Shown: positions 1-25,287 of the stretch, in pieces | Layout of the letters: each line of letters starts with the position of its first letter | Position numbering within the stretch: position 1 is the first letter of the stretch | Assembly (NCBI RefSeq): GCF_008831285.2 | Contig: NC_045138.2 | Location: forward strand, 33,722,769 to 33,786,768 | Origin: Nymphaea colorata | Lineage: Eukaryota > Streptophyta > Magnoliopsida > Nymphaeales > Nymphaeaceae | Reading direction: 5' to 3' | Length of the DNA stretch: 64,000 bases | Notes under the pieces: model-generated | Databases searched by the model: none | Told to the model about the DNA's origin: nothing | The model's input: only the letters and a program-made list of their open reading frames with translations | Position numbers and translations under genes: made by a program

Positions 1-761
1 CCCCCTTTTTTTGTTCTTTTCAGTCGGTCGAGTGCTCTTCAATAAAACCTACTGTATTTCCCTCAATATGAGATGTTGATTCTACACTTGCACGACAAGC
101 AGGGCAGGCCTTGCCCTCTGTCGATGTCGTTCAGGGCTGCCCTCTCCTTTTTATTTTGCAATTGTGTTATTACGTTTTATCCCTGTATAACTATGTTTAT
201 CTCTCCGTTTTTCTTCTGTAGTTGGTTTGAGAGACATGCTCTGTTTTTGGGTTGATTGTAGTTCTGGTTTCTCACGGATGAAAGCACATAGAGGTTTCAA
301 AGTTCAACCGATACCAACATGCCTTACACCTAGCATGCTTTGTTTCTTGAAAATCACAAGGAACTACAGGCATAAGCATACATAGACGTACATGTATATG
401 TATCTACAAAATCAAAAGAAAGTACATGGCTTCATGCTATTCATCACTGAATATTCTCATACCTCTGAAAATCTTGGCAGCAACTTCTGCTTCTGGTTCC
501 TTTCCAGCAGCCACGAACTTCAGTCTCAATCTCTCTCAATCTCTCTGTTGTTGGACGTGCCCTTCTAATGCTAAGTAAAACGATGATTTCCCCTTTGCAT
601 TTACATCATTATCCTTATCTTTTCCCAAAAACATCTCATTTATGATAAACTTGACAGTTGAGATGTTCATTATAAATCATTTGATCTTCCATTTGATAAT
701 TCATCCTCAAATTAACGTTCCAAATGTTTAAGGAAACTTAATAAAAATCGTGGGTCTTACA
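1..761 (-). repeat. 3' LTR (partial, cut by window start)
   Basis: Matches 4158-4918 at an offset of 4157 with one visible difference, a T at about 600 against a G at about 4757. On the minus strand it opens with TGTAAGACCC directly after the polypurine tract. About 1.8 kb of this LTR should lie left of the window. The 60-aa ORF inside it is repeated identically in the other LTR and is not a gene. Confidence 0.93.
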
Positions 762-773
762 TCCTTCCCCCCT
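762..773 (-). other. Polypurine tract (plus-strand primer site)
   Basis: On the minus strand this reads AGGGGGGAAGGA, immediately before the TGTAAG that opens the 3' LTR. It marks the orientation of the element. Confidence 0.88.
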
Positions 774-808
774 AAAAAGAAATTTCGTCCTCGAAATTTG
801 AGCATACT

Positions 809-1020
809 TTATTGAAACAATTGGGGATAACTCTTTCTCATGTCCTCTTCTAACTCCCACATACATTTTTTTGATTCTATGATGTTGTCATTCTATTTGA
901 ACTAATGAGATAGTCTTATTTCGCAACACGTGTTCCTTTCGATCTATTATCCGCAGTGGTTGTTCTTTTGTTATGTCTTCTTGCAAATCAACTTCTTCGT
1001 AATCTATCACCTTCATTCAC
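809..1020 (-). pseudogene. Remnant of Ty3/Gypsy pol C-terminus (end of integrase region)
   Basis: Minus-strand translation gives the typical end of a Tekay-type polyprotein: a stretch like DYEEVDLQEDITKEQPLRII, then DRKEHVLRNK, KTISLVQIE and WELEEDMRKSYPQLF followed by a stop at 811-809. The usual Trp after QIE is a TGA stop, and a one-base shift separates that segment from the final one. The fragment joins gag directly, so an internal deletion removed everything between the gag tail and the last ~70 codons of pol. The junction lies around 1010-1040. Confidence 0.8.
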
Positions 1021-2123
1021 ATCAGTGGATCTCAAATCTTCAACCGTGGTTGCGTAAACTCTCCCAGGTACCTTCTTCTCCGCTGGTTGGTTGGCTACAC
1101 CTCGCCCCTGTTCTGCCTCTTTCTTCTTCGGGCACTCACGAATAAAATGTCCTCGCCTTCCACAATAGAGACATGCCCCGACCTCTCTGTAACATGGTTT
1201 GCCCGGGTGTTGGCGATGACATGTGGGACATTCATCGTCCTGCCTGGATGTTGATGGCCTCTGTCTCTTGAATCTATCCCTTGGTTCACCATGTCGCTGC
1301 GCATGTCTGGCCTCGACTTGGATCGCATAAATTCACTCCTCTTGTTTGTCCCTTGCATCCTGTTCCAGCCCTCCTCAAGACGTGTGGCCATGTCGATAGC
1401 GTCGTCTAGATCTCTCGAACGACTACTAATTACTTGGTTCTGCAACCCGTCTTTAAGTCCTCTGACGAACTTATTTGCTCGGTCCGCATCAGCAGTATAC
1501 ACATGGGGGCAATATTTTTCCAAATGTCTGAATTTGACGATGTATTCGTGCAGACTCAGACTCCCTTGTTGAAGGTCCAGGAATTCTTGCATGCGTTTCT
1601 CCCGTGTGAAGGTTGGAATGTAGGCATGTGTGAAGGCTTCCTTGAATTCTCCCCAGGTCGCTTCGTGATTTGCGAACTTCACCTCACGTTGCGTCCGCCA
1701 CCATTCCTTAGCATCTCCTTTTAGCATAAAGGTTCCATACCGAACCTTCTTGTTGTCAGGCACTTCCAGGGTGGTAAAGATCTCCTCTGTTTCATTTATC
1801 CATTCTTCGGCATCGTCCGCAGTGCCTTTCCCATAAAACTTCGGAGGATGCAAACTCATAAACTGTTGGTGAGTTACTCCCCTTGCCTCACCATTTGTCG
1901 TTCCGTTTGTGTTTGTACTAGTTCCTCCTGTAGAAGCATTCTGCACCAGACCCTGCATCACTCCCGTCATCATATGCAATGTGTTCATGATGAACGCTTG
2001 TTGTTGTTGATTATTTCCAACACGTGTCCCAGCTCTGGTAGAACGAGTCTCCACATTTTGACTCCTAGTGCTGCGAGGTCCTCTGCCTCTGCCTCTAGCA
2101 CTTCCTCCTCTAGTACGTGCCAT
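1020..2123 (-). pseudogene. gag: Retrotransposon gag (capsid and zinc knuckle), frameshifted
   Basis: The ORF starts at MARTRGGSARGRGRG (start codon at 2123; an upstream in-frame ATG at 2150 is less typical). It contains the Retrotrans_gag capsid domain with the motifs FYGKGTADDAEEWI, MLKGDAKEWWRT and FTHAYIPTFTREKRMQEF. The zinc knuckle C-x2-C-x4-H-x4-C (CLYCGRRGHFIREC, 1173-1132) and the preceding CPTCHRQHPG segment are in a different frame. A single-base indel near 1275-1290 therefore separates capsid from nucleocapsid, and the open frame runs past the knuckle out of frame to 1095. Gag would normally package the element RNA into virus-like particles in the cytoplasm. As it stands the protein would lack nucleic-acid binding. 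Confidence 0.85.
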
Positions 2124-2314
2124 TGAACTACACCACACGGAGGAACACAAAATATAACTATTGTATTCGTAAGTAAAACAATTCGTTAAAGCTACTCTAA
2201 AATTTTAAAACTCAATATTCACACTAAATCAAAAACACATTCGTTAACAGGCTTGGATGACCTTTCCTCTGCTTGTGATCGACCTTGGCATTGGACATTG
2301 ACTCTAGACACTGT

Positions 2315-2326
2315 GCTCTGATACCA
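2315..2326 (-). other. Primer binding site for tRNA-iMet
   Basis: On the minus strand this reads TGGTATCAGAGC, the complement of the 3' end of plant initiator tRNA-Met. It lies 4 bases inside the end of the 5' LTR. It fixes the LTR boundary at 2331 and so shows that the LTR is 2588 bp, much longer than the 761 bp repeat visible within the window. Confidence 0.9.
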
Positions 2327-2330
2327 AAGT

Positions 2331-4918
2331 TGTCACGACCCAATTTTTGACACCAAAAATTTTCTTTCATTTCTATAATAGCGGAAGCAATATTGAGTCA
2401 TGACCAGAACATAAGACATTGTTTTATTTCAATAATAAAATACTTGGACCCAAACAAAAATAACCACAAATCCCCAAAACCGATGCAGTGTCCAGAATGC
2501 CAATGACCGTCCATCACAAGACTGAGGTCGTCGCTCCAAAGCCAAAATCTATCAATGACTACCTGTAGATAGAAAGAAGGGTCAGAATTCCTCTGAGTAT
2601 GAGAAAATCCAGCCATGAATGAAACATGGCCCAAAATAATGTTTAGTTTCGTAAAACAATTCCAAAAAGACCTTATGAACTACAACCATAGGTTTTCTGA
2701 AACTTAATACATATCACATCACCAAAGACAGAACGAGGTGTGCACAACCTCCAAAATTTCGTAGGCTTCCAACCGTGGTCCTCTGACAATGTCAAGGTCA
2801 TCGTGCCGAGCAACAGAAATCCCCGTGGGCACTCACGGGCAGAACATAACATCTCTTCACCAGGCGATCCAACGGATCGAGGGTACCTGAAGTGAAGCCT
2901 CCTGAGATATCCCAGATCGCCGCTGCAGCAGCATGGCCCCTCTAGGAACCCGGTTTGAGGGACCAGGAGATGTCTCTCTCCCAAAACAGCAGCAGTACCC
3001 CGGGCCCTTGTGCCGCCCAATACCCTGTGGGCCCTCCAGTACAGCCAGAGGAGCGTGCGTCAACAGTGAGCTCAGACGCACCACTACCTCCCGGGACGAA
3101 ACCGATCACTGGGCAAAACAGAAAGCTCGCACTTGCATAAACCATTGCACAAAGTCCACGTTTCGCCTTCGAATTTCAAAAGTGAGGGTTTACCAATGCT
3201 AGACATCGTCTAGTACCTCTCACAGAAACCGCCCGCCCTCAGGCTCGGTTTCCCAAACAGAATAATTCAGCTATTTTAAATCTTAATTTAATAGCAATAG
3301 AGCAAAACTCATTGCATCTAGAAACATCGATTAACAATATCATAATCTTTTTTTGAAACAATAAAATTTATATTTAAATTCTCCAAAGCATGGCTTTCCT
3401 CCTCTAATGGTTCCAAAGTTACTTTCAGAACTATATTTCTGAAATTTTAAACACCACAACGAGCATCAAAAAGTAATAAAACATATCATTTCGTTTTTAA
3501 TTTGTAACAACCCTCTTTTGGAAATTTCAAGAATCCGGAGGGTACCAAATCGCAACTTCATATTAAAATCTGGTTCTTATTGAAAATCACTTTCGCAAGC
3601 CTCTTTTTGAAGAGGTTTTTTAGCAAAAATGATGCGGCATGAACATTTACAAATTTTAACAGCTTATCCATAAATTATTGCTAATTAGTGGACCCGTTTT
3701 GAAATTTTTCCAACTTAATATAAAAACTGCCGACTCTCTTTTTTTTCTCTCATTTCACGCCTCGTTTTCTCTCTCATACGAGCTGCTCCTCCGTCTTCTT
3801 CTCGCTCGACCAGCGGTGGGGATTCCACCGTTTCCAGCGACCCAACACCGGCACGAGGGAGATCTCCCCGTCTCGCGCCAGATCCAGCGTTAGGCTTCCT
3901 GCTGCGGCTCCGTCGACCGTCCGACGCTCTCATTCGCCGCCGCCTCATCCTCTCCTCTCGTTCTTCCAGCGGATCCACAGTGTGAAAACCAGCCTCCCCA
4001 AAAACCGGTGCTTCAATGGCGTCTTCCTCAGTCTTCACCTTCGCTGCGACGGGGATGAACTGACAATCATAGAGAAACGACGGGAGGACGCCTGCAACTT
4101 CAATGTCGTCGTCCTTGTTTTCCCCAACTTGCCTCTGCTACCACCATGAAGAGGCAACCCCCTTTTTTTGTTCTTTTCAGTCGGTCGAGTGCTCTTCAAT
4201 AAAACCTACTGTATTTCCCTCAATATGAGATGTTGATTCTACACTTGCACGACAAGCAGGGCAGGCCTTGCCCTCTGTCGATGTCGTTCAGGGCTGCCCT
4301 CTCCTTTTTATTTTGCAATTGTGTTATTACGTTTTATCCCTGTATAACTATGTTTATCTCTCCGTTTTTCTTCTGTAGTTGGTTTGAGAGACATGCTCTG
4401 TTTTTGGGTTGATTGTAGTTCTGGTTTCTCACGGATGAAAGCACATAGAGGTTTCAAAGTTCAACCGATACCAACATGCCTTACACCTAGCATGCTTTGT
4501 TTCTTGAAAATCACAAGGAACTACAGGCATAAGCATACATAGACGTACATGTATATGTATCTACAAAATCAAAAGAAAGTACATGGCTTCATGCTATTCA
4601 TCACTGAATATTCTCATACCTCTGAAAATCTTGGCAGCAACTTCTGCTTCTGGTTCCTTTCCAGCAGCCACGAACTTCAGTCTCAATCTCTCTCAATCTC
4701 TCTGTTGTTGGACGTGCCCTTCTAATGCTAAGTAAAACGATGATTTCCCCTTTGCAGTTACATCATTATCCTTATCTTTTCCCAAAAACATCTCATTTAT
4801 GATAAACTTGACAGTTGAGATGTTCATTATAAATCATTTGATCTTCCATTTGATAATTCATCCTCAAATTAACGTTCCAAATGTTTAAGGAAACTTAATA
4901 AAAATCGTGGGTCTTACA
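2331..4918 (-). repeat. 5' LTR (complete, 2588 bp)
   Basis: Begins (plus strand) TGTCACGACC and ends GGGTCTTACA, giving TG...CA on both strands. It is flanked by the primer binding site on one side and presumed host DNA from 4919 on the other. Only 4158-4918 can be compared with the other LTR in this window. No coding region of its own is supported. Confidence 0.85.
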
Positions 4919-7571: not shown

Positions 7572-8978
7572 TGTCATCCATGGACATCATGTAAACAAAT
7601 ATGATACTCATGGTACAATTAGAAAAACCAAAGTATACTAAAAAATTAATAATACAATCTGCAACATTTTAAAATAAAGTTCTTGCCGATATATCAACCA
7701 AAGTGGTATCACCTCCTCCGTTTAGTTCTTAGACACTTGCTGTATTCATATATAGTCCGAATATTCAAAGCTGGTGGACACAACAGATCATTTTTCTCAA
7801 CTTAAGAAGACATTGAAGCCGCTGCCTCCCTTAAGTCTTACTTTAATTCATGATCATAATTTGCTAGTTTTTGCACCGCTAACAACCTTGCCGATCTTAT
7901 CACCTTCACTAGTTTAGTGACGAACGAACTTCCGCCAACCTGTTAATTAGTTGAAAGGTGGGTTAATAATTCCTTTGGTTCATGGATCCCCACAAAACCC
8001 TTCATATTTTATCAATTATCACTATTGAGGGCTAATACTGCAGTACAACGAGTAAACCAATAATTGGTAAAAAAAGGATTGAATGTCGAAAGGTTATCTG
8101 TACCTACATATGCACCTTGAGCAGGGCCATTCAGTAGGTCTGCTAAACAACATAGGAAGGACAAGGAGGAGAGAAAGATACATGGCATTTGCAATATGCT
8201 ATGACAACTAAAATTAGTTTAAAGCTCAACGCCTGGAAATTAGTCTACTTAGTTTACAAAAAGCGATCCGGATTTAAGAAACTTACAAGAATTAGAATTC
8301 AGGTAACTGGCCGAAACTGAATCCAAAAACAATGAATAGGGAACCATGGGAAATGGGAATTCAATCTTTTCGTCTTCGTGACTCCAAAAACAAGCTCAAG
8401 GGAAACTTTTTGCAAAAAAGGATTAATAAGAATTTGTTTTTCATGCTCAATGCGGATAAGTAAATGACAGTACTTTACAATTTTCAAAGATAAAACTTCC
8501 AAAAAAAAAAAAACCAAATTTTCAGCCACGCCTCTGAGGCGGGCGTCGGGGGACATTCTTCACCTGCAATCATACGCATCCAAACATTGTTTTTTGGACC
8601 TCCAAGTCTTGGATGGTGACAAGGACAGTTAGCTTATCCACGCTTTCGAGATGTGTTTCGGACCACAGGCCAGTAGAAACATGGGGACTCTCTGTTCAAA
8701 GATCTTCTGAAAAATTTCAACAGGAATCCAACGGCTGATAGCGAAACTCCATAAACTCTCTTACCTTCTTCTGAGATCCCGGCAGAAGATCGGCCCCCTG
8801 CTCCGGTGGTCAACTTATCCACACCCAAAACCACCAAACGCCGCCTTTTTTTTTTTTTCCGGTGGGTGGCTTCTTGAGTTCTTTGACTTTCGAAAGCCTG
8901 ACCCTGAAATATAACCACCTACTCTTCTGCTTATTTATAACTGAGACGCTCAGGCCCCCCACTCGGCAGCTGAGAAAG
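7572..8978. other. Intergenic and amino acid permease promoter region
   Basis: No gene is supported in 7572-8900. The last ~80 bases hold TATA-like sequences (ATATAA near 8908, TATTTATAA near 8932) that could serve the permease gene starting at 8979; neither stands out clearly. Confidence 0.4.
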
Positions 8979-11900
8979 ATGGAGATTGAAGGGAAGAGTG
9001 CTGACGCGGAAGTTGCTGCTAAATATTTTTCAGAAGATGGCGAGGAGTGTAAAAGAACTGGTACTTCCTTCTTCTTTTTTTTCTGTTCTGCTTGACATGT
9101 TCGATGTCTTCCATTGTTGCGGTGATGCTGAACTATGATGAGGCAATCCGCCATGTGGAATCCTGGAATGCATTTGGTCTATATTTAGTCAAAATCGCTT
9201 CCTCTTGGCTCTTAGTAACAAAATGGACCGATTTCCAATCTATGTAAATGCTGTAGCATCTATTGTATATGTGTAGATACGACTATGTGGGGTTTCTGTG
9301 CAACTCGAATTCCCCTTCTTGAACTCTACTTTGGCTTAACATCACTCACCACTCTCTGCACCCCTTTCTTCTTCTGTAATTGGCAGCAGGGGCTTGGCAG
9401 ACATTGAAGGCATATACTTTTTAACTTGAATGCCTTGTGTCTGATCCGCTAGCTAGTTCACTTAACGCCACCGTCTTCATTAACTTGCCTCGCTGATTAA
9501 TTTTCAACGGGATGAGTTTTAGTACTGTTTAAGCTCTCACTGACCGTGGAGGTCTGTCTTACCAGGTACTTTGTGGACATGCATCGCTCACATAGTCACT
9601 GCGTTGATCGGCGCTGGGGTGCTGTCACTGCCATGGAGCGTAGCCCAGCTTGGTTGGATCGGAGGCCCTTTAGTCATGGTGATCTTCGCATTCATCACGT
9701 ATATATCTGTTCATCTGCTTTCAGATTGTTACAGATCTCCCGACTCTGTCACTGGCAAAAGAAACCGAACCTACATGGACGCCGTGCGCGTAAACTTAGG
9801 TAAATTTGCTCATCTCTCTCTTGATTCAAGTTCATGTGAATTTAGATCATCCATTCCATCGTTCCTTACACTGACTATCATATGTATGAGAAAAAGATAA
9901 ATTACATTGAAATATCCGGCAAATTGTGAGTGCTACCGACATTTAAAACGGAGAATGTCAGTGAACAGGAAAACATAGGCAAATTCTGTGACGATAATGA
10001 AAGTTTGCCAATAAGCTAGTGTCATGATAATGATAGTGATGATGGATGATGACAATGTTGTGGCTGTGGAATAGGTAAATCATTCGAGTCATTATCAGAG
10101 CACATTATAAATGTTTATTAATGTTTTTCTAAAGTTGTTGTTCCCGTGTGTAGATCCAAAGATATACCAACATGCGCACACCCCCTTGTGGAATACCATC
10201 AATGGTTGATCGAGTTCTCAGTATTTAATTAGATGAACAGAACACCAATCGAGGACAACCACACATGTCATGTGCGCTTGAATTTAATATAACGTATATG
10301 AATCAGTACTACGAGGCCGGCGTGCCATTATTTTATCGTTGACAATATCAAATGAGCTGTTTCTGATACATGCCAAGCCTACACGACCATGGTTCTAATA
10401 CGAAAAGAAATGCAAAGTAATTAATAAGATCGATGATCTTGCAGTAGTTGATCATGCGGGTCTGCATATCCTCACCTGTCAACTCATGGCCACCTTTTAA
10501 GGAAGCCAGAGGAGTTGGCATGGCAGCTTAACTCTCTGGTTTTCGTCCGTTTCAGAAACAACGGGCCTGGTGATCATCTGCGTATCCGCTTTCTGACCTG
10601 TTGGACTCTTCGACAATCCTTTGAACGGATTCTGCCTTTTGTGTTGTTCGTCAACCACGAGCCCCACCCGCCTACTTAAAAATATTCTTCTTATTGATAA
10701 AATGTCGGCGATATATATACATATAACAAGATGGGTAGTGGGACATGAGTCGGTAAGTTGTTCGAATCGAGGCAGATTGAGGCGCTACTGAGTTTGGAGT
10801 ACTTGGAGGTGTCATGTTTTCAAAGTGAATTTGGTTCAACTAGCTTTTTATTAACGTCAAACGTGAAACAATTTGATTAATCATCTATTTTTTTCTCTTC
10901 ACTGCACTTTCAATGTTCATGAAATAGGCACGGGTTCCTCATTTTCTTTTCTTAATTGTGTTAATTTTCAGGGAAGAACCAGATATGGGCATGTGGGCTA
11001 CTGCAATATCTGTATATGTATGGGATTGCTGTAGCCTATGTCCTTACTTCTGCAGGGAGCATGAGGTCTACATAAACTCTCTCTTTTCTTTATTTGTTTC
11101 TCAAGCTTATGTGGTTCTGAAGTCAATACAACGTGGCTGATGCAGGGCTATACGGAAATCAAATTGTTTTCACTCGAATGGGCACAATGCTGATTGCCAG
11201 TTTGGGAACACTTTCTACATGATCTTGTTTGGGGTGATTCAGATATTGTGCTCCCTCATCCCAGATTTTAACAACATGAGTTGGCTTTCTGCTGTCGCTG
11301 CAATCATGTCTGTCTTCTATTCTACAATAGGATTAGGCCTTGGAATTGCTAGAGTAGTAGGTGGGTTTCAAGTTTATGAGTATAGACACATGTATGCTTT
11401 TCTTTGCCCAAGTCGGGCAATGCACAGCCTTAGTCTTTCCTTCTGCTGAAAATTCAAAAATGATGTGTTTCAGATAATAAACGAATTTATGGGAATATTA
11501 GAGGAGTTCAAACGGCTACCACAGCGCAGAAAGTGTGGAGGGTCTCTCAAGCAATTGGTGACATAGCTTTCTCTTTCCCTTACTCTTTCATCCTCCTAGA
11601 GATTCAGGTGAGGACCCGAACTTGTGCTTCAAGTCAATTGATCAAGAACTTTTATTTCATCGTCACTAGAAGTCCAGATAAACATGCATATTGACATGCT
11701 GTAAACCAACTGATTGTAGGATACCCTGAGGTCCAAGCCTCCGGAGAACTTAATAGTGAAGAGAGCATCGATTGTCTCCATTTCCATAACAGCATTGTTC
11801 TATCTTTCTTGTGCCTGCTTCGGTTATGCAGCTTTTGGGGACGACGCACCTGGAAACATTCTCACTGGGTTTGGATTCTATGAGCCATATTGGCTCATTG

Positions 11901-12559
11901 ACTTTGGAAATGCCTGCATTGTGTTGCATCTTGTTGGTGGTTACCAGGTGAAGTACTTTCTATCACCTACCCTAATTTGCTTCTAAAGTGGTATTCCTTA
12001 CTGATGCTCGATCATGAAAGTAGGTAGTTTTACAGAGAGGGGGACAGGGCAAAAGTTAAGCGGCCATCTGGTTTTGCTTTTTCTTTTTTTAAAAAAAAAA
12101 AAAAACTTCGCTTCTTATTTCGTCTGTCAATTGTACAATTTGCAGGTATTCAGTCAACCAGTGTTTGCGTTTTTTGAAGGATTAATAGAAAAAGTTTTTC
12201 CCAAAAGCATGACGTTCCTAAAAAAGAACTACAGTATTTGCCTCCCGTGTTTGCCAGTTTACCATTTCAATCTAATCAGGCTGGTCTTTAGAACCCTGTA
12301 TGTGGTCTCCACAGTTGCACTGGCCATGTACTTTCCTTACTTTAACCAAGTGTTGGGCATCTTAGGTGCCCTTAACTTCTGGCCTCTGGCCATATATTTT
12401 CCAATAGAGATGTACATGGGGCAGAAAAGAGTGAGATCATGGAGTACCAAGTGGGTGGCCTTTGAGGTGTTCAGCATCTTCTGTCTTCTCATTTCATTGT
12501 TTGCCCTGATTGGCTCGGTTGAAGGACTTGTAAGAGCCAAACTTGGTTGGGCTTCATGA
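8979..12559 (+). CDS. AAP: Amino acid permease, AAP family (AAAP transporter)
   Basis: Predicted H+-coupled amino acid importer of the plasma membrane (AAAP superfamily). Exons: 8979-9060, 9566-9799, 10972-11065, 11146-11360, 11474-11607, 11720-11947, 12146-12559. All introns are GT-AG, phases agree, and the total is 1401 nt, 466 aa, a normal AAP length. After a short acidic cytosolic N-terminus comes the hallmark GTLWTCIAHIVTALIGAGVL, then LPWSVAQLGW of the first helices. Later segments include SNCFHSNGH, the AAP signature QAIGDIAFSFPYSFILLEIQ, DTLRSKPPEN and the terminal helices with NFWPLAIYFPIEMY. The start at 8979 gives the usual short N-terminus ending KRT-G. AATAAA follows the stop at about 12585. 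A second, intact copy of the last exon lies 1054 bases downstream. The individual AAP member cannot be named from sequence alone. Confidence 0.93.
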
Positions 12560-13895
12560 TGTGAAATCTTAGTGTAATTATTTCAAATAAATGTTAATGA
12601 GGTCATTTTTCAAATAGCCAATGGTGCCATTTGATATAATTTTATTGTGTGTTCCAAGGGGCAGATTCATGAAACACTTTGTGAGTGTTTTGGCTGTCAA
12701 ATAATATTTCTGTTTGACAATGAGAATGGTTTGTCATTGGCCCATGAATCTACCTCACAATTAAAACAAATTTATGGAACATTTTATGGTAGGCCTTGAT
12801 GAATCTCCTCAATATTTAAAGTAGATCTGTGGAATCATTTCATCGGCTCCCTCTCTATCTTTTTGTCTCCTGCTAGTCTTGCTTTTTGTTCTTGTTCTTC
12901 TTTTTGCATGTTTTATGTTCTTGTTTTCTTTGCTAATTTTTCTCCTATTTTTTTTGCCCTTGTTAATATAATCTCTGTTAATATAATCTGGCAATAATCC
13001 GGCTAAGCCCCGAGAGAGACAGAGCCTGAAAGAAACCACGTTTACTATCAATCTTAAAACTGGTTAATTTTGAATTTATGAAAGAAACCAGCCGACAGGC
13101 GTGCATTCTTTTTGCTGTTTTTAGCTTATTCTTTTTCCTGTTTTTAGCTTACCATCAATGTTAATTTCATAAGATGAATTTTTTTTTTTTTTTTTGCAGG
13201 TATACAGTCAACCAGTGTTTGCATTTGCTGAAAAAGTAATAGAAAGGATGCTCCCCAAAAGCATGACGTTTCTGAGGAAGGATTTCTGTATTAGCGTACC
13301 ACGTCTGCCAGTTTACCATGTCACACTACTCAGGCTATGCTTTAGAACCCTGTATGTTGTCTCCACAGTCGCACTGGCCATGTACTTTCCTTACTTTAAC
13401 CAAGTGTTGGGCATCTTAGGTGCCCTTAACTTCTGGCCTCTGGCCATATATTTTCCAATAGAGATGTACATGGTGCAGAAAAGAGTGAGATCATGGAGTA
13501 CCAAGTGGGTGGTCTTTGAGGTGTTCAGCATCTTCTGTCTTCTCATTTCATTGTTTGCTCTTATTGGCTCAGTTGAAGGACTTGTAAGAGCCAAACTTGG
13601 TTGGGCTTCATGATGTGAAATCTTAGTGTAATTACCTCAAATAAATGTTAATGAGGTCATTTTTCAAATAGCCAATTGTGCCATTTGATATAATTTATTG
13701 TGTGTTCCAAGAGGCAGATTCATGAAACACTTTATGAGTGTTTTGGCTGTCAAATAATATTTTAAGGTCTCTTGACAATGAGAATGGTTTGCCATTGGTC
13801 CAACCTCACAAATAAGACAAATTTATGGAACATTGTATGATAGGACTTCTTGAATCTCCTCAACAGTTAAAGTAGATTTATGGAATCATTTTCTA
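12146..13895 (+). repeat. Tandem duplication: terminal exon plus 3' flank of permease gene
   Basis: Segments 12146-12845 and 13200-13895 align at an offset of 1054 near the exon and drift by small indels in the 3' flank. The homology starts at or next to the exon 7 splice acceptor; the intron sequence just upstream of each copy is unrelated. It covers the coding exon, the AATAAA signal and about 280 bases beyond the stop. The spacer 12846-13199 is unique, AT-rich and free of genes. Confidence 0.9.
13200..13613 (+). CDS. AAP: Duplicated alternative terminal exon of the amino acid permease
   Basis: A second copy of exon 7 follows a strong acceptor (long T run then GCAG at 13199). It is open for 137 codons plus stop and is in the same phase as 12146-12559, so exon 6 (ending 11947) could splice to either copy. 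Encoded residues 1-47 of the exon differ from the upstream copy at 18 positions; residues 48-137 differ at only two (Gly/Val and Ala/Val). No frameshift, stop or lost splice site is visible, which argues for use or recent origin. The alternative reading is a dead tandem duplicate, since the upstream copy has its own stop and polyadenylation signal. Confidence 0.75.
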   Translation, partial: VYSQPVFAFAEKVIERMLPKSMTFLRKDFCISVPRLPVYHVTLLRLCFRTLYVVSTVALAMYFPYFNQVLGILGALNFWPLAIYFPIEMYMVQKRVRSWSTKWVVFEVFSIFCLLISLFALIGSVEGLVRAKLGWAS

Positions 13896-13910
13896 GATTT
13901 CTACTTTAAG

Positions 13911-16060
13911 CCCCTTCGCTTCGAGCCCCGTTGCCAGATTTTCACCTCTCCTCCCTTTCTGTCTCATGTGCGATCGCTCTTGAGCTGCCTTTCCTGCACC
14001 AAGAGATCAAGAATGTTGTCTGAGCCCTTGGCTCTGGTAAGGCGCCCGGCATTGATGGCTTTCCTATTGAATTTTTTTGTACCTTTTGGGAGGTTTGTAC
14101 CGCTGATGTGTTTGAGTTTTGTGATGAATTTGCCTCCAACTCCGTCTTTCAGGAATTTAATCAAGCCACCTATGACTTGGTGCCTAAGCATTCTAACTTT
14201 ACGGACGTCACTCACTTTCGCTCGATCTTCATCTTAGACACTCCTTACAAGATTATTGCTAAGTTGCTTTCCTTACGGCTTGCGCCTGTTATGTCGTCTA
14301 TCATTAACCTCTTCCAGGTTGCTTTCATCAAGGGTCGGTGTTTAGAGGACGTTGTGGTCCTCGCCAATGAGGTTGTTCATTCCCTATACTCTCTGTGTCT
14401 TCCTTCCTTCATCCTTAAGTTGGACATCTCTAAAGCTTTTGATTCGGTTAGTTGAGAGTTTCTTTCTGACCTCCTCACACGCCTTGCTTTTGGTCCGTCG
14501 TTTAGGCAATGGATCCTTTCAATTGTCACTGAGGCCCAACTAGCGGTCTCCTTCAATGGGTTGTGTGGCGATTTCTTTTGTCTAGGTCGTGGCCTTCGTC
14601 AGGGTTGTCCGTTATCGCCGTTGCTCTTCAACTTAGTTGTTGAGTGCTTTTCAGCTTTATTTTGTCACGTTGCGGTCGTAGGCTTCCTCACTCCGCACTC
14701 ACTCCCCCACTTACAGGCTCTCTCCTCCCTTTAGTATGTTGAGCTGATGATTTTTTCCTGTTTGGCGCTGCTTCCCGCCAACAGATTGTAAGAACTTGGC
14801 TTATCCTTCGGGTTTTTGAGCTCATTTGGGTCTTTCTATTAAATGTCACATTTCTCTCATTCGCGCGGATCCCACCACGATGATTATTGCGGAAGTTTGC
14901 TTTGGGTGCAAAGCTACTGGTCTTTCTATGGACTACTTGGGTCTTCAGTTTACGTTGTCGTCTCATGCACCCTCCTTTTGGAATGGAATGGAGCAGAAGC
15001 TTGTTGATCGCCTCTAGTGTTGGCAGGAAAAACTGTTTTCTCTCCTAAGTCGTATTACTCTTGCTAAGCATTGTCTTGCGTCTGTCCCTCTCCATGCTTT
15101 TGCGGTCTTTCGACCTCCTGTGGCTGTTCTGAAAATGTTTGACAAGATCATTTCTAAATTTATCTGAGATGGTGACCGACCTTCAGATCGCCTTGCGCAT
15201 TGGGATGTGGTTGCCTTTCGCGTCTTCTTGGGGGCGTTGGGATTACCAACCTTACTCGAGCTTGTGAGTCTTCTCTGTGTTCTTGGTGGTGGCGTCTAGC
15301 AACTAAGCACTCTCTCATCACTTTGTTCATTTGCTCCAAATTTGACATGTCTTTCCCTAGTGATTGGAATACTTCCATCTCTCACACCTCTCCCTCTCAG
15401 TTTTTGTGCAATCTGCTTTCTGCCCTTCCTCTCTTCCTCCGCCTTGCTAACCTTCCATCGTTCGCATCCCCATCTTGGCCTCTTTCACCTTCTCATGAAT
15501 TCACTTTTTCTTCTTGCTACCTGGCTTCCTTTGGTTCTTCTGTGGCGTCGCTCCCACCCTGATCCCTTTGGTCCTCTGGCCCTTCTCCTTGTGCCACTGC
15601 TTTTGTTTGGCTTCTTCTTACTGACCACATCAACACTTTTGACCACTTGCAGCGTCGGCTTAACTAACCAGTGTCCCCTTAGTCTCGCCGCGACTGAGTC
15701 TCGGATCTACCTTTTTACTTTTTGCTCTTTTTTCTTTAGTGTTTTTGCCTCCTCCTGGCCTTCTCTTGTTAGTAGCCTTCCGGACCCACCCCCATTCATC
15801 TTTTTTTTTTTCTCTTCTGTCCTTCTCCCCTCCTTACGGTTTCTTGGGGTTGTGTCTAGAAGTTGTGGCTCATTTCAGTTTGGTGGCGCATTTGGAAAGA
15901 GCGCAACAACAGGGTCTTCAAGAGTACCTTATCTTCGTCTGAGTCTCTGGCTCGTCTTGTGCAAGCAAAACTTCATTATCCAAACCTCTTCCATAAATAT
16001 ATTTATGTCCATGCTAGTGGGAGTACTGATCCGTCAATGGTGTCAAATGATATCTTGTAA
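13911..16060 (+). mobile_element. Degenerate LINE (L1-type) reverse transcriptase fragment
   Basis: Translations in shifting frames give the ordered landmarks of a plant L1-type reverse transcriptase: GKAPGIDGFPIEFF (about 14038), FRSIFILDTPYKIIAKLLSL, VAFIKGRCLEDVVVLANEVV, LKLDISKAFDSVS (about 14418), GRGLRQGCPLSPLLFN (about 14590) and a broken YADD box near 14730-14750. A C-terminal W-x-IW-x-ERN-x-R-x-F segment lies near 15870-15910. Several stops and frameshifts interrupt it. The 5' part (ORF1, endonuclease) is missing, as is usual for truncated LINE insertions. The 5' end abuts the duplicated 3' flank of the permease gene; the exact 3' end and target-site duplication are not clear. Confidence 0.88.
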
Positions 16061-16245
16061 CGGGCCAATGTCAATGATTTGGATACTATCTTCTGACTCC
16101 GTGCATAAGGGTTTTGGTGAGAAAGTCTCTATCCAACTAGTGATCAAATTCAAATTGGACATGGAATGCAGATTCCACTAAATACCTGAATGTGACTATA
16201 TATGAAAATTTTGAACTTGGCGTCTTGCATCTTCAAGATATGAAC

Positions 16246-16438
16246 TAGTCGCCAACCCTACAAGCAAAAGCAACAATTCTCAATAGCAGTTCCGCCATCG
16301 AAAAACCCTAGTTTGAGAATGCCCAAAAGAAAATCAAGAAAAATGAAGTGGAAAGAATACTTGATCTGAAGATCGAGGGGCGCGCTTTCCGCTCCCGATC
16401 GCCGGTTGGGACTGCGTCCACTGTAAGCATGTCGCCAA
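16246..16438 (-). pseudogene. Displaced fragment of the PI31 gene (end of exon 2, intron 2, start of exon 3)
   Basis: Nearly identical to 23000-23192 of the PI31 gene on the same strand. It includes the first 12 bases of exon 3, all of intron 2 and the last ~77 bases of exon 2. Because the intron is kept, this is a DNA-level copy rather than a retrocopy. A two-base insertion (GGGGCGCGC against GGGGCGC) breaks the exon frame. Homology stops at about 16438, where an A-rich stretch begins. Confidence 0.9.
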
Positions 16439-16639
16439 GAGAAAAAAAAAAAACTCGGGATACGCATACAAACAATAAGCATGATGTAGGAAACATGAGA
16501 AAAAAAGAAAAAAACTCGCCACTTTTCCACGGAATTGGAAATCAGAGCAAGAATTCCGAAAGATTAAAGCCCGATAATTAGATTTCACCGTGGTTATCGT
16601 TGCTAAGCCTAGCAAGAAAAAAGGCATACCTTCACATTC

Positions 16640-16783
16640 GAGATGAACTTCACCGAGACGACTTGGCAGCTTGATCTCGCCCTTGCAAGCCCTAGCAGAC
16701 ATCACCGTCGGCGGCAATGTTCCTCCCGTAACAGTCTCATTCGATACAAACGATCTGACGCACATAATTTGATCGGTCTCCAC
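16640..16783 (-). CDS. Orphan exon-like ORF beside the PI31 fragment, function unknown
   Basis: Minus-strand reading from ATG at 16783 gives about 48 residues beginning METDQIMCVRSF and including ARACKGEIKLPSRLGEVHLE. The codon composition looks more protein-like than the surroundings. It ends at a plausible donor (GAAG|GTATGCC, about 16639). Downstream on the same strand lies only the PI31 fragment, so it may be the first exon of a chimeric or captured gene, or a relic. I do not recognise the family and cannot identify a continuing exon. Confidence 0.3.
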
Positions 16784-17572
16784 TCAACACAAGCGGAGAT
16801 CAAGAATCGAGGAATGAGTCTGAAAGCGAGCAATCGGCATCAAGGCTACTACTGGAACGGCGTCCGGGGAGAGAGAAAGGGACACCCCATGATCACACTA
16901 AGATGCGAAAAGGGCTGCGGCAAAAAGCTTTCAAGAATCAAAATCCTTTTTTCTTCGTTGGATGACGACGCGGTGCATGCGGGGCTCATGGTTTGATACA
17001 AGTGGGTCTGGCGGGTAGAGAATATATTGCAAATGAATTTTTTTGAATTTGTGTTTTTCCCATGACTTCGGTTGCATCCAATTATTTAACTGTTTCAATT
17101 TTCGTGATCCAACCGCAACTTATCCAAGTCAGTGAAAAGAATATCCAACAACTCACTTTACATTTACTTTTTCAAAACATTTTAAAATCTCTATGATAGA
17201 GGTCATTGGCACCATTGTTTCGGGTGAGCGAGACTTATTAATCCCTGGTCCTGAGTCGGTGTCAACGATACAACGGTTGGTAAAAAAAAAAAAAAAAATG
17301 CATTGATGACCCCTGATGGTTATGACTAATACTGCGCGCAATCCCCATTTATTCAAATTGGGAGTCAATAAAGAACGAAACAGTGGAAATTATAAGAGGT
17401 CAGAACTGAAGTTAGAGATGCCTCACCTCCTGCTCCCGTGCGGGGACGTGGAATCTTGGAGAGTGTTGCATTTACGTTGCGCTTCCATGTATTTTATATT
17501 GTGGACCGATAGCATAATTCATAATGCGATGGGGCCACCATCAAATGGTGGAAAGTAAAATGGAACAAAATG
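16784..17572. other. Intergenic, no supported gene
   Basis: GC-richer up to about 17000, then AT-rich with an A17-type run near 17282-17298. No coding signal beyond the orphan exon's possible 5' leader. Confidence 0.4.
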
Positions 17573-17654
17573 CGTGGACGGCAGGATTCGAACCTGCGCG
17601 GGCAGAGCCCACATGATTTCTAGTCATGCCCGATAACCACTCCGGCACGTCCAC
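17573..17654 (-). tRNA. tRNA-Ser (anticodon AGA)
   Basis: The reverse complement folds as a type II tRNA of 82 nt. The acceptor stem GTGGACG pairs with CGTCCAC and is followed by discriminator G. The D arm contains GGAGTGGTTATCGGG, the anticodon stem-loop is CATGACTAGAAATCATG with anticodon AGA, there is a long variable arm, and the T arm is GCAGGTTCGAATCCTGC. No intron and no encoded CCA, as expected for a nuclear gene. On the transcribed strand a T-rich run lies about 15 bases beyond the end and could act as Pol III terminator. Confidence 0.97.
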
Positions 17655-18791: not shown

Positions 18792-21700
18792 TCAGAACGG
18801 AGAGAAGTGCTGCAGATCCGGGTGTACATTGCTTCCAGGCCGCCGCGGGTTCCTATTAAAATTGCCAAGAAATTTCGTAAGACAAAATAGAAAAAGACGA
18901 AGGAAACATATTGAAACGAGAAAGACAACTCATCTTCCACCGCTTCGTGGATCCGGTCATGCATACTTACAACTACATGATGATCCCCATGGAACCAAGA
19001 GAGCATAACAAGCCTACTTATAGCAAAGGTCATGGTCTCCATGCCATTAAAGAATCTCATTTGAATATTTCAACGTGGTAGACCTCATATAAATTTGCAA
19101 AGGGACAGAATAGGATAATAAAACAAGCAAGTTCAGGAAGCCCAGATACCATGATGACCAAGGTAATAAATACAAATTGATGGCAACTAAAAAAGAAGCA
19201 TTCGAAGGAGTTACTACTTACTACTATCATACAGCATTTTAATGTCACAGTACAAATATGCACTAGAGCAGATCATGTGGGATACTAATCAGTTACTTGG
19301 GAAGGGTGAACTAGCAAGCAGCATGTACCATGCCACTAACAAAATGTCTTCCCTGGATGAATTTTCAGTAGCAACCTGAATCTCTTTCATCTGAACTGAT
19401 TCCTCTCTCTTCATCACATCCTCCTCAATGGACCCAATTTTCAAGAGGGACACTGACTAGAGGGCAATCTTCAAACTCAAGTACCCCCCACCCCCTAACA
19501 AGACCTTCAAGGCTGAAGGTAGTGCCTTAAATGCTGACCAAGTTAAACAGACAAGATGGTTATATATCTCTTTGGCAAGGGTCCAGCAAGGGTTGCCAAA
19601 GGCTAAGCGTAGTATAACCAATAAGTTTTCAGGTCCAACTTTCACTGTGTCACGTGAAAGAAAAGGCCCACAGTGTCATTGAAGCTCATTGCGTGAAGCT
19701 CTTTAATCTAATCAGGTCTAGATGATTAAAGGGCGTTGGAATAACAAAAGAAAGAGGAATGATTTGTCTCTGTTTCCAACCTCCATGGGACATATCCAAC
19801 GTTACATACTGACGACGGAGTCAACATGCAGAACAAGAGACTGAATGCGAATCCTAAATTTTTCAACCTGATTGGTCAATAAATCAGTTTGCTGACAAAA
19901 TAAACTTCTAAAGAAAGTTCAATTTCGAACCATGATGAAAGAATGCTTTTGTCATTGCCATGCCCTTCAGCAAAGCCAGTTCTAATGGAACAAATCACGT
20001 TATGTTTCCACTCATGCACCAAAATAACATCCGTCCTTAAAAATAATTAAGCAGCCACACTTTTCAAACACCCCAATGCATTCATCACCATTCAACGTTC
20101 ATGGATACATTTTTACCAATCCAAGACATACCTCACAAAACGACTCGGTTCAAAACCGGGAACATCAGGAGGACCATATGGATCAAACCGTGCTCCAGGC
20201 GGCACAAATCTATGAAGAACAGAACAGAATATCAGCATATTCACAATAGTGGATATCCTATCAAAAATTGAGAGAAGGATAAAGCTTACGGCACTCCGCC
20301 AGACATAGGATCAGGATCTCCATGTATCCCGTTCCAGCGTGGATCATTTGGTCCTGTTAAAACAACAAAAATTAGGTAGTAGTTCAAGATTAACTTCTTA
20401 AGTATAGGCATATTCCTAAAGATCACATTGGTTCATGTGGTACAGACCTAAAAGCATTCCTCCATAACTCCCATAAGTATCCCTGGATAAAGAACAGAAA
20501 AAAGAAAAAAGTTCTAACAAATTATGCTCATTTATCGAGGAAAAATGACATATAGTGGATGGAACTAGAACCTGGCAGGATACATGCCAGCACCAAGACT
20601 TGGATAAAGATCGTTAGCTCCAAGAGGTGGGATTGGTGGGGCTGGAGCAGGTCTACAGATAAATGAACAAAGGATCATCTCATGTCACAAGTAGAAAAAC
20701 GAAAAGAAAAATGGAGAAGCAAAAAAACTTGCTCTAAACATATAAAGGCAAAGAATAGGCAACAACCATAGCGCCCGCCAACAATTAGATAAGAGCACAC
20801 AAACTGGAAAAAAAAAAGTTTATTCTTTCCAAGACCCAAAAAGGAAACTGGTCAAGCCTAAACGACGACGGTATAATTTTCTAGTGAGAAGCTAATCTTT
20901 GTCAACAGTTATAGCTACCAGAAATATATGTTGAACTGAAGACAATAAGAAGTTTAAGAAATATATTCTGCAGAAAAATGTTAAGGCACATCCATTAGTG
21001 ACAAAAAGTAAAGAGTCAACCATCAAAAGATTTATTTGAGGCTCCACCCAAAAATAGTGCAAATAGTCAACCACAAAAACTAGATTGATCACATGAGAAA
21101 CTCAGTGCTAGAAGTTCTGGATGGTGGAGGAGATTAAGGAAATTCAACCTTGTATTTAACTGTCAATGTTTGAAAGAAATGCAACATATGCATAAGATAT
21201 ACGAACAAACACACAATTGTCACCAGGGTGCATGGATCTGCATTGTCCTCCAACCAGTTAAAGCCAATCAAGATCCAGCTTCAACATTTATTATCACTGC
21301 TAGACACTAATAAGACAAATCCGGCTCCACTCACCCCCTTTCCTCTTCGCCAAAAACATAATGAAAAAAGACAGATACAAAAGTAAATGAAGAACACAAG
21401 AAAGCACCATCCAGAAGAACTTAAGAAAAGAAGGAAAACAGATCTCATAGAGAAAAGGAAATGTAAGACAATGCCAAATGGCCTCAAAATTTACTTCAAT
21501 ATCATCAAGTTTGCGAAATAGGATGAGAGATTCACATCTAAGTTGCAATGAAAATAAAGTTTATATCAGACTACCTTATCGAAGTTGTACCAGGCTCTCG
21601 ACCAAACCCAATATCAGGTTGCCCTTGACCATGTTCTTCCCCTATCTGTAATCTACATGCAAGCACATAATTGGATTCAGACAATGAGAGAGAAAAGCTC

Positions 21701-23330
21701 ATTGTTTTTCAAATAACCAATAATATCAAACAAGCCTGAATAAAGAATTTTAGAGGTATAATCATATTTATCATATGACAAATCTAATGAATAATTTCTT
21801 CTACTAGCACCTTCATATGCATTCAATCTCATTTATGAAATGATTTAAATGATTAATCTTTTCAAAAAAAATCTTATTGCATCATGCCTTCCATTTGAAA
21901 CCTCTTAATAATAAAGAGAAAGAGAGAGAGAGAGAGCCAAGTGACACAAAGTTGCTATTTCGTTCTTTTATTCTCCCGACCTGGCTTTATTACAATTTAA
22001 TCTAGAAATTAAACCCAAATAATAATGTCAGCAGGTTAATGAGTTTATAATCCCCTAAGTGACTAATTTCATAGATAAGCTGTTGAAAGGATAGGAAAAT
22101 CTTAGTCAGCGACTCAGGAAACAACTACTAGCTCAATTCAAAGACCAAATACAAAAATAGCAACATAATAATGAGCTCGACATATTGTTCCACCTAGATC
22201 ATGCCCAACAAGAAGATAAATCACATGCTAGAAGGAGACCAATAAAAGGATATAGCAGGTTCTTACTCAAACAAGCCACTTCTTGGCTCCCAATAATTAC
22301 TTCTTACAATATTCATTCATTAGGGAAAGGATCACTTCACAGACCTCGTCTCCAGTTCAAGCTGAAACATGGGCCCCTACATATATGGAGAGGCGGCTTG
22401 GACGCCAAAAAGGCTAATCTTCTGCAGCGGGGAGGAATCCAAGAACCCTATCTAGATTCAGTCGTCAAACTGATCTTGATAACACAAATTAAGATGGCAA
22501 GACCCGTGTATGAAGTTGAAGCTTTTTCCATGCATTATCCAATAATACACATCAAACATCAATTGAGCAAACACTAGAATATGACAGTTTATGGTCTGAC
22601 AAAGATGAATGTCACAATCGAACTAGCCTATGGCATCTTTGTTGCTATCAAATTCGATAAGTTGCTTCCTCTGTGATGCAGCATTTTTTTCATCTCATAG
22701 CAGAAGAATACCCATTCTTGTAGCTGATTAAAAGAACTAATATTTCTCGCATAAACAAATTCTCAATACAATACTCGCAAAGGATTTCATATCAATTCAG
22801 GGATTGTCGAACTATCAATTTAATGACATCTCAATTAAAAGTAGAGCTAGGATTTACACCACACCTAGATTTTGATGAACTAGATCCCTCCTCTGGCTGG
22901 TCCTCAAGTTTCGACAGAATAGAACCATTGATATTCTTAACAAACTCGGGCAGATTCTTATAAAGTTCACTATAGTTTGCTGAAGAGCCATCGCGGACGT
23001 AGTCGCCAACCCTACAAGCAAAAGCAACAATTCTCAAATAGCAGTTCCGCCATCGAAAAACCCTCGTTCGAGCATGCCCAAAAGAAAATCAGGAAAAATG
23101 AAGTGGAAAGAATACTTGATCTGAAGATCGAGGGGCGCTTTCCGCTCCCCATCGCCGGTTGGGACGGCGTCCACCGTAAGTATGTCCCCAAACGCCAAGC
23201 ATTTGACCAACACCGTCTTCTTCCTGCCTTTGTCATCGGTTTTCTTGTAAAGGAACCCATACGAGTCCTCCAGTTCGTTCCACCCCTCTGTTCCCACTTC
23301 CTCTTCACCTAATCAACCAGGAAATGCATC

Positions 23331-23367
<37 letters not shown>

Positions 23368-23548
23368 ATCACCTACCGATGGAAAGAAGCGAAGAAATTT
23401 CACCGAGAGCGGATTTCCCGGCAGCAGTAAGGACATAATCGGCTGAGAAGAAGGAGGCGTGCACCAGGAACGCCACCTTGTCGTGGTCGTTCCGGAACGA
23501 CGGCCGGGACGCCCTTATAACCGCCATCACCGACTTGTCGCTCGCCAT
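18792..23548 (-). CDS. PI31: Proteasome regulator PI31 (PTRE1-like)
   Basis: Homologue of the 20S proteasome-binding regulator PI31 (Arabidopsis PTRE1), acting in cytosol and nucleus. Nine exons in transcription order: 23548-23377, 23308-23116, 23011-22865, 21652-21575, 20652-20572, 20482-20448, 20353-20290, 20209-20132, 18852-18792. They join in frame with GT-AG introns to 909 nt, 302 aa, which matches the family length. The N-terminal PI31 domain (about 1-160) carries SVMAVIRASRPSFRNDHDKV, EGWNELED and VLVKCLAFGD. The C-terminal Pro/Gly-rich domain (about 185-302) carries RPAPAPPIPPLG, GPNDPRW, FDPYGPPDVPGFEPSRFVR and HPDLQHF. Intron 1 is only 68 nt, and about half of it is a CT/GA microsatellite. 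A partial copy of the gene sits at 16246-16438. Confidence 0.95.
21908..21935. repeat. (GA)n microsatellite in PI31 intron 3
   Basis: Short imperfect AG run in the 1.2 kb intron between exons 3 and 4. Confidence 0.85.
23335..23366. repeat. (AG)16 microsatellite filling half of PI31 intron 1
   Basis: Sixteen AG units on the plus strand, CT on the sense strand. It occupies 32 of the 68 bases of intron 1 (23309-23376), starting about 10 bases from the donor. Confidence 0.96.
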
Positions 23549-23559
23549 GTCACCTTAGT

Positions 23560-25287
23560 GACTCTTCTTCTTCCTCTTCTTCCTCCCTCTCTACCCCTCT
23601 CGACTGATCGATGCCAACTCGCAGAACCTAGATAACAATCCAAGAGAGCCTCGTGCCGCCTTCCCTCTTTCCCTGGATGTTCAATCTTAGCTAGTCAAAC
23701 CGGAGACGTGTCTTCTCGAAGCGAATCCATAGATAACTTGCACATAAATCCGAAGTGGGACTTTTAAGATCCAGGTCTGGTTTTATGTGTGACCCGCTTC
23801 ACAACGATAGTTCCAGCAAACGGACAATCTGAAAATCAAACTCAAGATTTAATATCTCTCAAATCTATAGACTGAAGATTTAATATCTCTCAAATTTATA
23901 GATTTCAAGTCTCAAGGGGTAATTGGCAAAAATTTTGAATCTTAAATATAATTTAAAAAAAAATCTAAAAGGTCATTTTATTGTTGTTGTCCACTGAGAT
24001 AGGACAGACAGAATGTTATGTTATGTCTATCACACTACTGTCTTATCCTCATAAAATTTCTTGTTCATCGTTTGATGATTTTAGGAACAAAAGACTACGT
24101 TTTTCTTATCTGATGTTTGTTACTCTTCTGTCTATTCTATCTGGTGGCGTTTGTTTTTATTCTGTCTGATTTATTTGTTATGTCCAATGTTTGTGTCTTT
24201 CATCGTCAATTTTGTCTATATTGTCTAGTATTTGTTTATATAACAATCTTTAAGAAACCAATATTATCCTTAAGAAACCAGTATTGTAGGTAGCGGAATG
24301 GATTTATTTTATTCAAAAAATGGGTCCATCCAAGTCGCAATTATTAGTTTTTAATAACTAAATCAATCGATCCTAGTGCTTGAGTTAGACTTCCCTCTCT
24401 CTCTCTCTCAGAGCAGTTGATGATGTCAATGCAGTGAATTACATTTTTTAGGTTGATGTATATAAAAGTCGACAAGGTAGAAGGCTTAAGCTCAATTGTT
24501 TTAAATATAAGACTTCGTAAATAAGTGCTACTTGTAAGTATGCAAAAAAAAAAAAAAAAAATCTTGCTTTCAAGTCAACAACTAAATAAAATAATCATAA
24601 GCCGTAGTACAGAAGAAACTTTTAGAAGCCTATTACTTCTCATAGACATATCTTTCGTTTGACTCCATGATGGAGCGCAAGAAATGAAAGCATAGACCTG
24701 TCAAGTTACATCTTCCTCTGATTCGCTGTTTATTGGCTATCTATTTGTGCAACAAAGCTCGCAAGAGAGAGAGAAAAAAAGAGATTGCAGATTTGCGGTA
24801 CCTTTCGAGATTCACCATTCTAATTGTTTATCAACCACAACTCCATAGAGAAAGCACTTGTTTACGAATGGCACCACCTAGGGAGTTCAGAGTCTGAATA
24901 ACCTTTTGCGCCTATTATCTACTGATAGATATGATACATTTATCTTTTCCTAAATCTGTTTCCTTTGAAAATTTAGTTAAAGGCTAACCGAACATACAAG
25001 CTATGTCGCTGTAAAATTGAACTTTCAACTAAACCCATAAATTAAATCATCGTGACATTAGACTCAGCTGCGTCGAAGCTTAGCACCTGAGTTGGTTTAC
25101 TGCCCGACAGTCAAATTTTAACAAAGAAATAAAATCCCTATTGAGAAAGCACAGTAGTCTGCAAGTTTTCTTCCCCCAGGAGTGGAGCTACCACCCCTTG
25201 ACCATTTGTACCACCCATTTCATCTGACTGTGTCTTTACTTGTTGTTCACCCCTTAGTTTGGAAGTAGTAGTCGCTGACGTAGTAGA
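23560..25287. other. Intergenic, PI31 upstream region
   Basis: The first ~80 bases are CT-rich leader and promoter of PI31. The remainder is AT-rich, with an A18 run near 24543 and no supported gene. Confidence 0.5.

Follow-up and report, generated by a model that had tools for sequence, protein, structure and literature searches.

In Nymphaea colorata, gene C, identified by its sequence as a plant amino acid permease of the Aa_trans family, is followed by a second complete terminal exon, and we consider it probable that the gene as a whole is a permease gene carrying the fused last exon of a deleted tandem paralogue. It lies in a stretch of 64,000 nucleotides (C1:33722769-33786768, referred to as the window) that is part of a 407.8-Mb genome of 783 contigs. 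Positions without a contig name are window positions.

Structure of gene C and its two terminal exons

Gene C (8979-13613) has seven coding exons separated by GT/AG introns. Two genes with the same seven-exon structure, A and B, are located upstream.

C1:33704965-33708532: gene A, with the seven-exon structure of gene C
C1:33710762-33714337: gene B, with the seven-exon structure of gene C
8979..9060, plus strand: exon 1 of gene C, ATG at 8979, 97.6% identical to gene A exon 1
9566..9799, plus strand: exon 2 (gene model, comparison with gene A)
10972..11065, plus strand: exon 3 (gene model, comparison with gene A)
11146..11360, plus strand: exon 4 (gene model, comparison with gene A)
11474..11607, plus strand: exon 5 (gene model, comparison with gene A)
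11720..11947, plus strand: exon 6, with the donor common to both possible last exons
12146..12559, plus strand: terminal exon 7a, native to gene C and A-type; 137 codons and TGA; 96.1% identical to gene A exon 7
12586..12591, plus strand: AATAAA behind 7a
13200..13613, plus strand: terminal exon 7b, 137 codons and TGA, B-type in its first 140 nt and largely A-type from about nt 189 on
13640..13645, plus strand: AATAAA behind 7b

When exons 1-6 are joined to either last exon the frame is uninterrupted and the product has 466 residues. The Aa_trans profile (PF01490) matches the whole protein with 350.5 bits (cut-off 25.6, E 1.4e-104) over residues 27-457, corresponding to profile positions 2-408 of 410, and each terminal exon is recognised by itself (67.9 bits for 7a, 70.3 bits for 7b). 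A comparison of the protein with PDB chains gave no match at E 0.001.

The preliminary description of this locus had reported that the last exon is present twice, each copy with 137 codons, a stop and a polyadenylation signal, behind a good acceptor and in the same phase, and its exon count, phase and junction coordinates agree with our gene model. Both exons are preceded by a TTTGCAG acceptor, both follow exon 6 (end at 11947) in phase 0, and in both the AATAAA is found at stop+27. Exon 7b starts 1.25 kb downstream of the exon 6 donor, in the same orientation and phase. The structural elements of alternative last exons are thus present, namely two terminal exons with an acceptor, an in-frame stop, a polyadenylation signal and a common phase. 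The pyrimidine share of the 17 nt at the acceptor is 0.94 for 7b and 0.53 for 7a. The two exons are 90.1% identical across 414 nt, which is far beyond chance (E 2.8e-159).

Between the proteins ending in 7a and 7b, 20 of 466 residues would be different, and 18 of these fall within 331-376. The claim that the differences are confined to the first 47 residues of the exon (330-376) is therefore correct for these 18, but not for residues 421 and 434. The variable stretch 331-376 is mostly N-terminal of a helix predicted from hydropathy at about 372-390, and exon-7 homologues elsewhere in the genome also vary in the corresponding stretch.

Origin of exon 7b

Collinear blocks were identified by a self-comparison of C1:33690001-33786768 (96,768 bases, none of them N). 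Window positions 8015-12963 are collinear with gene A and its flank, while 12971-13598, followed by 15973-16246 and 16470-16854, are collinear with gene B and its flank. The features around the junction are as follows.

12964..12970, plus strand: 7-nt filler at the deletion junction, A-type flank to 12963, B-type intron 6 from 12971
12971..13199, plus strand: remnant of intron 6 of B', the putative deleted paralogue, with its own acceptor, matching gene B intron 6 at 191 of 205 aligned positions (93.2%)
13614..13891, plus strand: A-type 3'UTR and flank behind 7b, sharing 251 of 273 aligned bases with the 3'UTR and flank of 7a
13886..15972, plus strand: fragment of a LINE, truncated on both sides, with copies of this repeat family across the whole genome
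15973..16246, plus strand: B' downstream flank resumes, 91.7% identical to the gene B flank

What a fusion by deletion would leave behind is found here: a unit duplication, collinear flanks, and a single junction at which an interval is missing. In the intact upstream unit, the stretch equivalent to the missing one measures about 4.8 kb (18912 to 23721 of the compared region). The introns of A and C are identical at 1865 of 2022 positions (92.2%), whereas those of A and B (801/1711, 46.8%) and of C and B (782/1680, 46.5%) are at background level. The homology between 7a and 7b begins only 7 nt upstream of the exon in the self-comparison. Because the intron before 7b pairs with gene B, while the introns of A and C pair with each other and 7a and 7b become alike only at the exon, 7b is, as judged from these alignments, the surviving last exon of B', a deleted tandem paralogue once located behind gene C.

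According to this explanation, the A-B permease gene pair would have been duplicated in tandem, and a deletion in the downstream unit would then have joined the flank behind A' (which is gene C) to intron 6 of B', with the 7 nt as filler. Exons 1-6 of B' would have been lost with about 4.8 kb, judging from the other unit, and its exon 7 would have been left behind gene C with its own acceptor and in frame. The composite gene appears to be young; dS over exons 1-6 is 0.056 between A and C and 0.49 between A and B.

A search of the whole genome with the DNA of exon 7a gave 4 places of 4 candidates, all on contig C1, which are 7a, 7b and the two upstream genes (C1:33708119 and C1:33713924). With the 7b protein, 15 places of 25 candidates were obtained, and the 11 outside the array are 37-58% identical. 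A second exon close to exon 7 of gene B (B7) was not found by the genome search beyond this array. Gene B itself has one in-frame TAG, at codon 322 in exon 6 (C1:33713299-33713301; L006:3299-3301), and is otherwise open over its seven exons. Because of this TAG, gene B is probably no longer functional, unless the stop reflects a sequencing error or an allele of the sequenced plant.

Other features were observed in the second unit and elsewhere in the window. The left part of the unit holds a 2.6-kb repeat in three copies about 1.6 kb apart (window 1-4918 and C1:33716776-33722768); the copies are 99.65% identical over 2598 bp, and the repeat with its spacer is 99.8% identical over 6756 bp. The arrangement resembles an LTR retrotransposon in which an LTR-like sequence occurs three times, and an ORF at 1095-2204 on the minus strand matches Retrotrans_gag. 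A tRNA-Ser gene (anticodon AGA) is located at 17572-17654 on the minus strand. In the intron piece before 7b, a 23-bp unit occurs twice in tandem (13105-13151), with one copy fewer in gene B.

Mosaic composition of exon 7b and its flank

Exon 7b does not resemble B7 throughout. Its nt 1-140 agree with B7 at 135 of 140 positions and with 7a at 106, while in nt 187-414 it matches 7a at 223 of 228 positions and B7 at 203. The B-like pattern is found at 28 sites before nt 140 and at 3 beyond it as far as nt 399 (nt 275, 314 and 372, retained in the A-like part), the A-like pattern at 2 and 17 sites, respectively (Fisher p 1.6e-8). The best breakpoint lies between nt 140 and 189, and 0 of 5000 permutations reached it. 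For the 17 sites of nt 187-399 where B7 alone differs, a comparison was made with L014, the closest exon outside the array (58% protein identity); it has the B7 state at 7, the state of A, 7a and 7b at 5, and neither at 5. By this comparison, the contrast at the later sites is in part due to change in B7 itself and in part to replacement in 7b, so that a conversion across the entire 3' half of 7b is only partly right as a description.

The 3'UTR behind 7b is identical to that of A at 232 of 257 positions, compared with 243 of 259 between A and 7a. Since the introns of A and B are at background level, such a 3'UTR must have been acquired. We propose that recombination with A-type sequence swapped the 3' half of 7b and brought the A-type 3'UTR with its AATAAA. 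To place an A-type 3' part and a LINE fragment inside B', one additional rearrangement or more must be assumed. Among 40 matches scored of 149 candidates, 37 are copies of this repeat elsewhere and the other three correspond to this locus, 7a and gene A. In six copies that were fetched the element extends past both ends of the window fragment, and in the three reaching that far the window match ends at 15945-15977. A derivation of the gene B flank from the 3' end of the LINE was also considered and rejected, as 24251-24700 of the compared region matched none of the six copies.

Two further observations concern exchange and order within the array. In 7a, nt 141-192 (window 12286-12337) have the state of 7b and B7 against gene A, at four sites in nt 141-186 and at nt 192, a pattern suggestive of a short exchange in the opposite direction, from 7b to 7a. 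The B-flank pieces 16470-16854 and 21319-22369 are in an order unlike that of the upstream unit, the latter being displaced, which shows that the second unit is rearranged at its right end.

Selection on exon 7b and alternative explanations

In its 414 coding nt, exon 7b carries 5 changes seen in no other copy, compared with 13 across 252 nt of its 3'UTR (p 0.005). Restricting the coding part to the matched A-type tract leaves 4 or 5 changes in 228 nt (p 0.05 or 0.10 against the same 13 in the 3'UTR). Four coding changes can clearly be assigned to 7b, and a single one of them is nonsynonymous (binomial p 0.045); this value would be weakened if nt 94, which cannot be assigned, were counted. Over the first 48 codons, 7b and B7 differ by 3 synonymous and 2 nonsynonymous changes, a ratio of 0.195 based on small numbers and on B7, which is not a neutral yardstick. 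The data thus lean towards selection having kept the coding part of 7b, with a weak signal. The counts do not show the neutral pattern that the preliminary description had named as evidence against its proposal, but they may still be compatible with one, as the signs of constraint are weak. For exons 1-6, the C side has 6 nonsynonymous and 5 synonymous changes and the A side 1 and 3, with 5 unassigned; the difference is not significant (p 0.57), and relaxed selection on these exons of gene C was rejected as an explanation.

An explanation to which we give somewhat less than an even chance accepts the same origin but regards 7b as an inert relic, never or hardly spliced in, its frame being open through youth and through past selection in B' and in the A-type donor. 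The open frame indeed proves little, because the copy is young (as reflected in the A-C distance) and stops were infrequent when 7b was simulated with 6 or 10 random substitutions, appearing prematurely in 24% or 37% of the copies. It would also agree with such a relic that the 7a acceptor and AATAAA upstream are intact, that the matched contrast between coding and UTR rates is marginal, and that gene B already has a stop, so that B-type sequence is dispensable there. The lower rate of 7b-specific changes in the coding part, the single nonsynonymous change among four, and the acceptor of 7b, which has been kept with 16 T in the 17 nt before the last bases of GCAG, argue against it.

We find it very unlikely that the locus is an assembly artefact in which reads from the copies of genes A and B were collapsed into a chimaera. 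The 12963/12971 junction is known from one assembly and may also be a variant of a single plant, and an array of units 88-97% similar to each other, with a 6.7-kb repeat at 99.8% just upstream, is error-prone terrain. The pieces at the junction, however, are several percent different from A and B and are therefore not copies of those reads; the region contains no N, and a filler at a junction is typical of end joining.

Least probable of all is a simple duplication of exon 7, in which the exon and its flanks were copied in place within gene C and diverged later: the copies are indeed direct, 1054 bp apart and 90% identical, with near-identical 3' halves and 3'UTRs, but the intron before 7b is that of gene B and unlike the one before 7a, the first 140 nt of 7b are B-type, and the flank beyond the LINE fragment is that of gene B, which refutes it for the 5' part, while the 3' half could stem from such an exchange.

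Possible use of exon 7b and relation to known systems

Most transcripts would be expected to splice exon 6 to 7a and end there, and those running past the polyadenylation site of 7a could splice exon 6 to 7b instead. Exon 7a is probably the main end, because it comes first and has an intact acceptor and polyadenylation signal. Use of the second junction would yield this permease with a stretch of B-type sequence linking the helix that precedes exon 7 to the following helix. The preliminary description had proposed two permeases produced by alternative last exons and polyadenylation. This is structurally possible, both exons being complete, in phase and open. We regard the actual use of 7b as a conjecture and put a regular, detectable use at about an even chance. 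That the choice between 7a and 7b is regulated and functional seems unlikely, and it is just as doubtful whether gene C acts as a working composite of two paralogues, using 7a and 7b according to tissue or condition, with a single promoter and six common exons giving rise to an A-type and a hybrid A/B permease.

Alternative last exons, tandem duplicates of plant amino acid permeases (AAP) and deletion fusions between tandem paralogues are all known kinds of arrangement. Gene C resembles alternative last exons with coupled alternative polyadenylation in having two complete terminal exons behind one donor, but differs in that the second exon stems from a neighbouring gene, now deleted, and not from the gene itself, and in being known here from the DNA only. 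Fusion by deletion between tandem paralogues is of the kind seen with unequal exchange in gene arrays, and as in such fusions the genes have one orientation and the flank of one is joined to the intron of the next. Unlike in the usual case, the upstream gene C stayed complete, and the donor exon was added as an extra without replacing the native one. It is less usual for a whole upstream gene to gain its neighbour's last exon as an in-frame extra, with the parental arrangement still readable beside it.

Tandem AAP duplicates in other plants include 3 pairs in Amborella and 5 in rice, according to PMC7275304. Compared with these permeases, gene C, a candidate AAP, has two possible C-terminal parts from one gene. 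An AAP gene of this type was not found in a literature search that was thin on subscription journals, and the accessible parts of PMC7275304, PMC11678306, PMC6700725 and PMC7015852 contain no comparable case.

The locus offers a snapshot of how a second terminal exon is gained: the parental arrangement is still present alongside, and both the break and the subsequent recombination can be traced base by base. Duplication is usually seen as relieving alternative splicing. If 7a and 7b were both in use, gene C would represent the reverse, tandem paralogues merging into one alternatively spliced gene. Exon 7b would then be the sole remaining route of the B-type segment into a full-length protein, because exon 6 of gene B contains a stop and the genome search gave no other exon close to B7, and two neighbouring genes would have turned into one gene that chooses its last exon.
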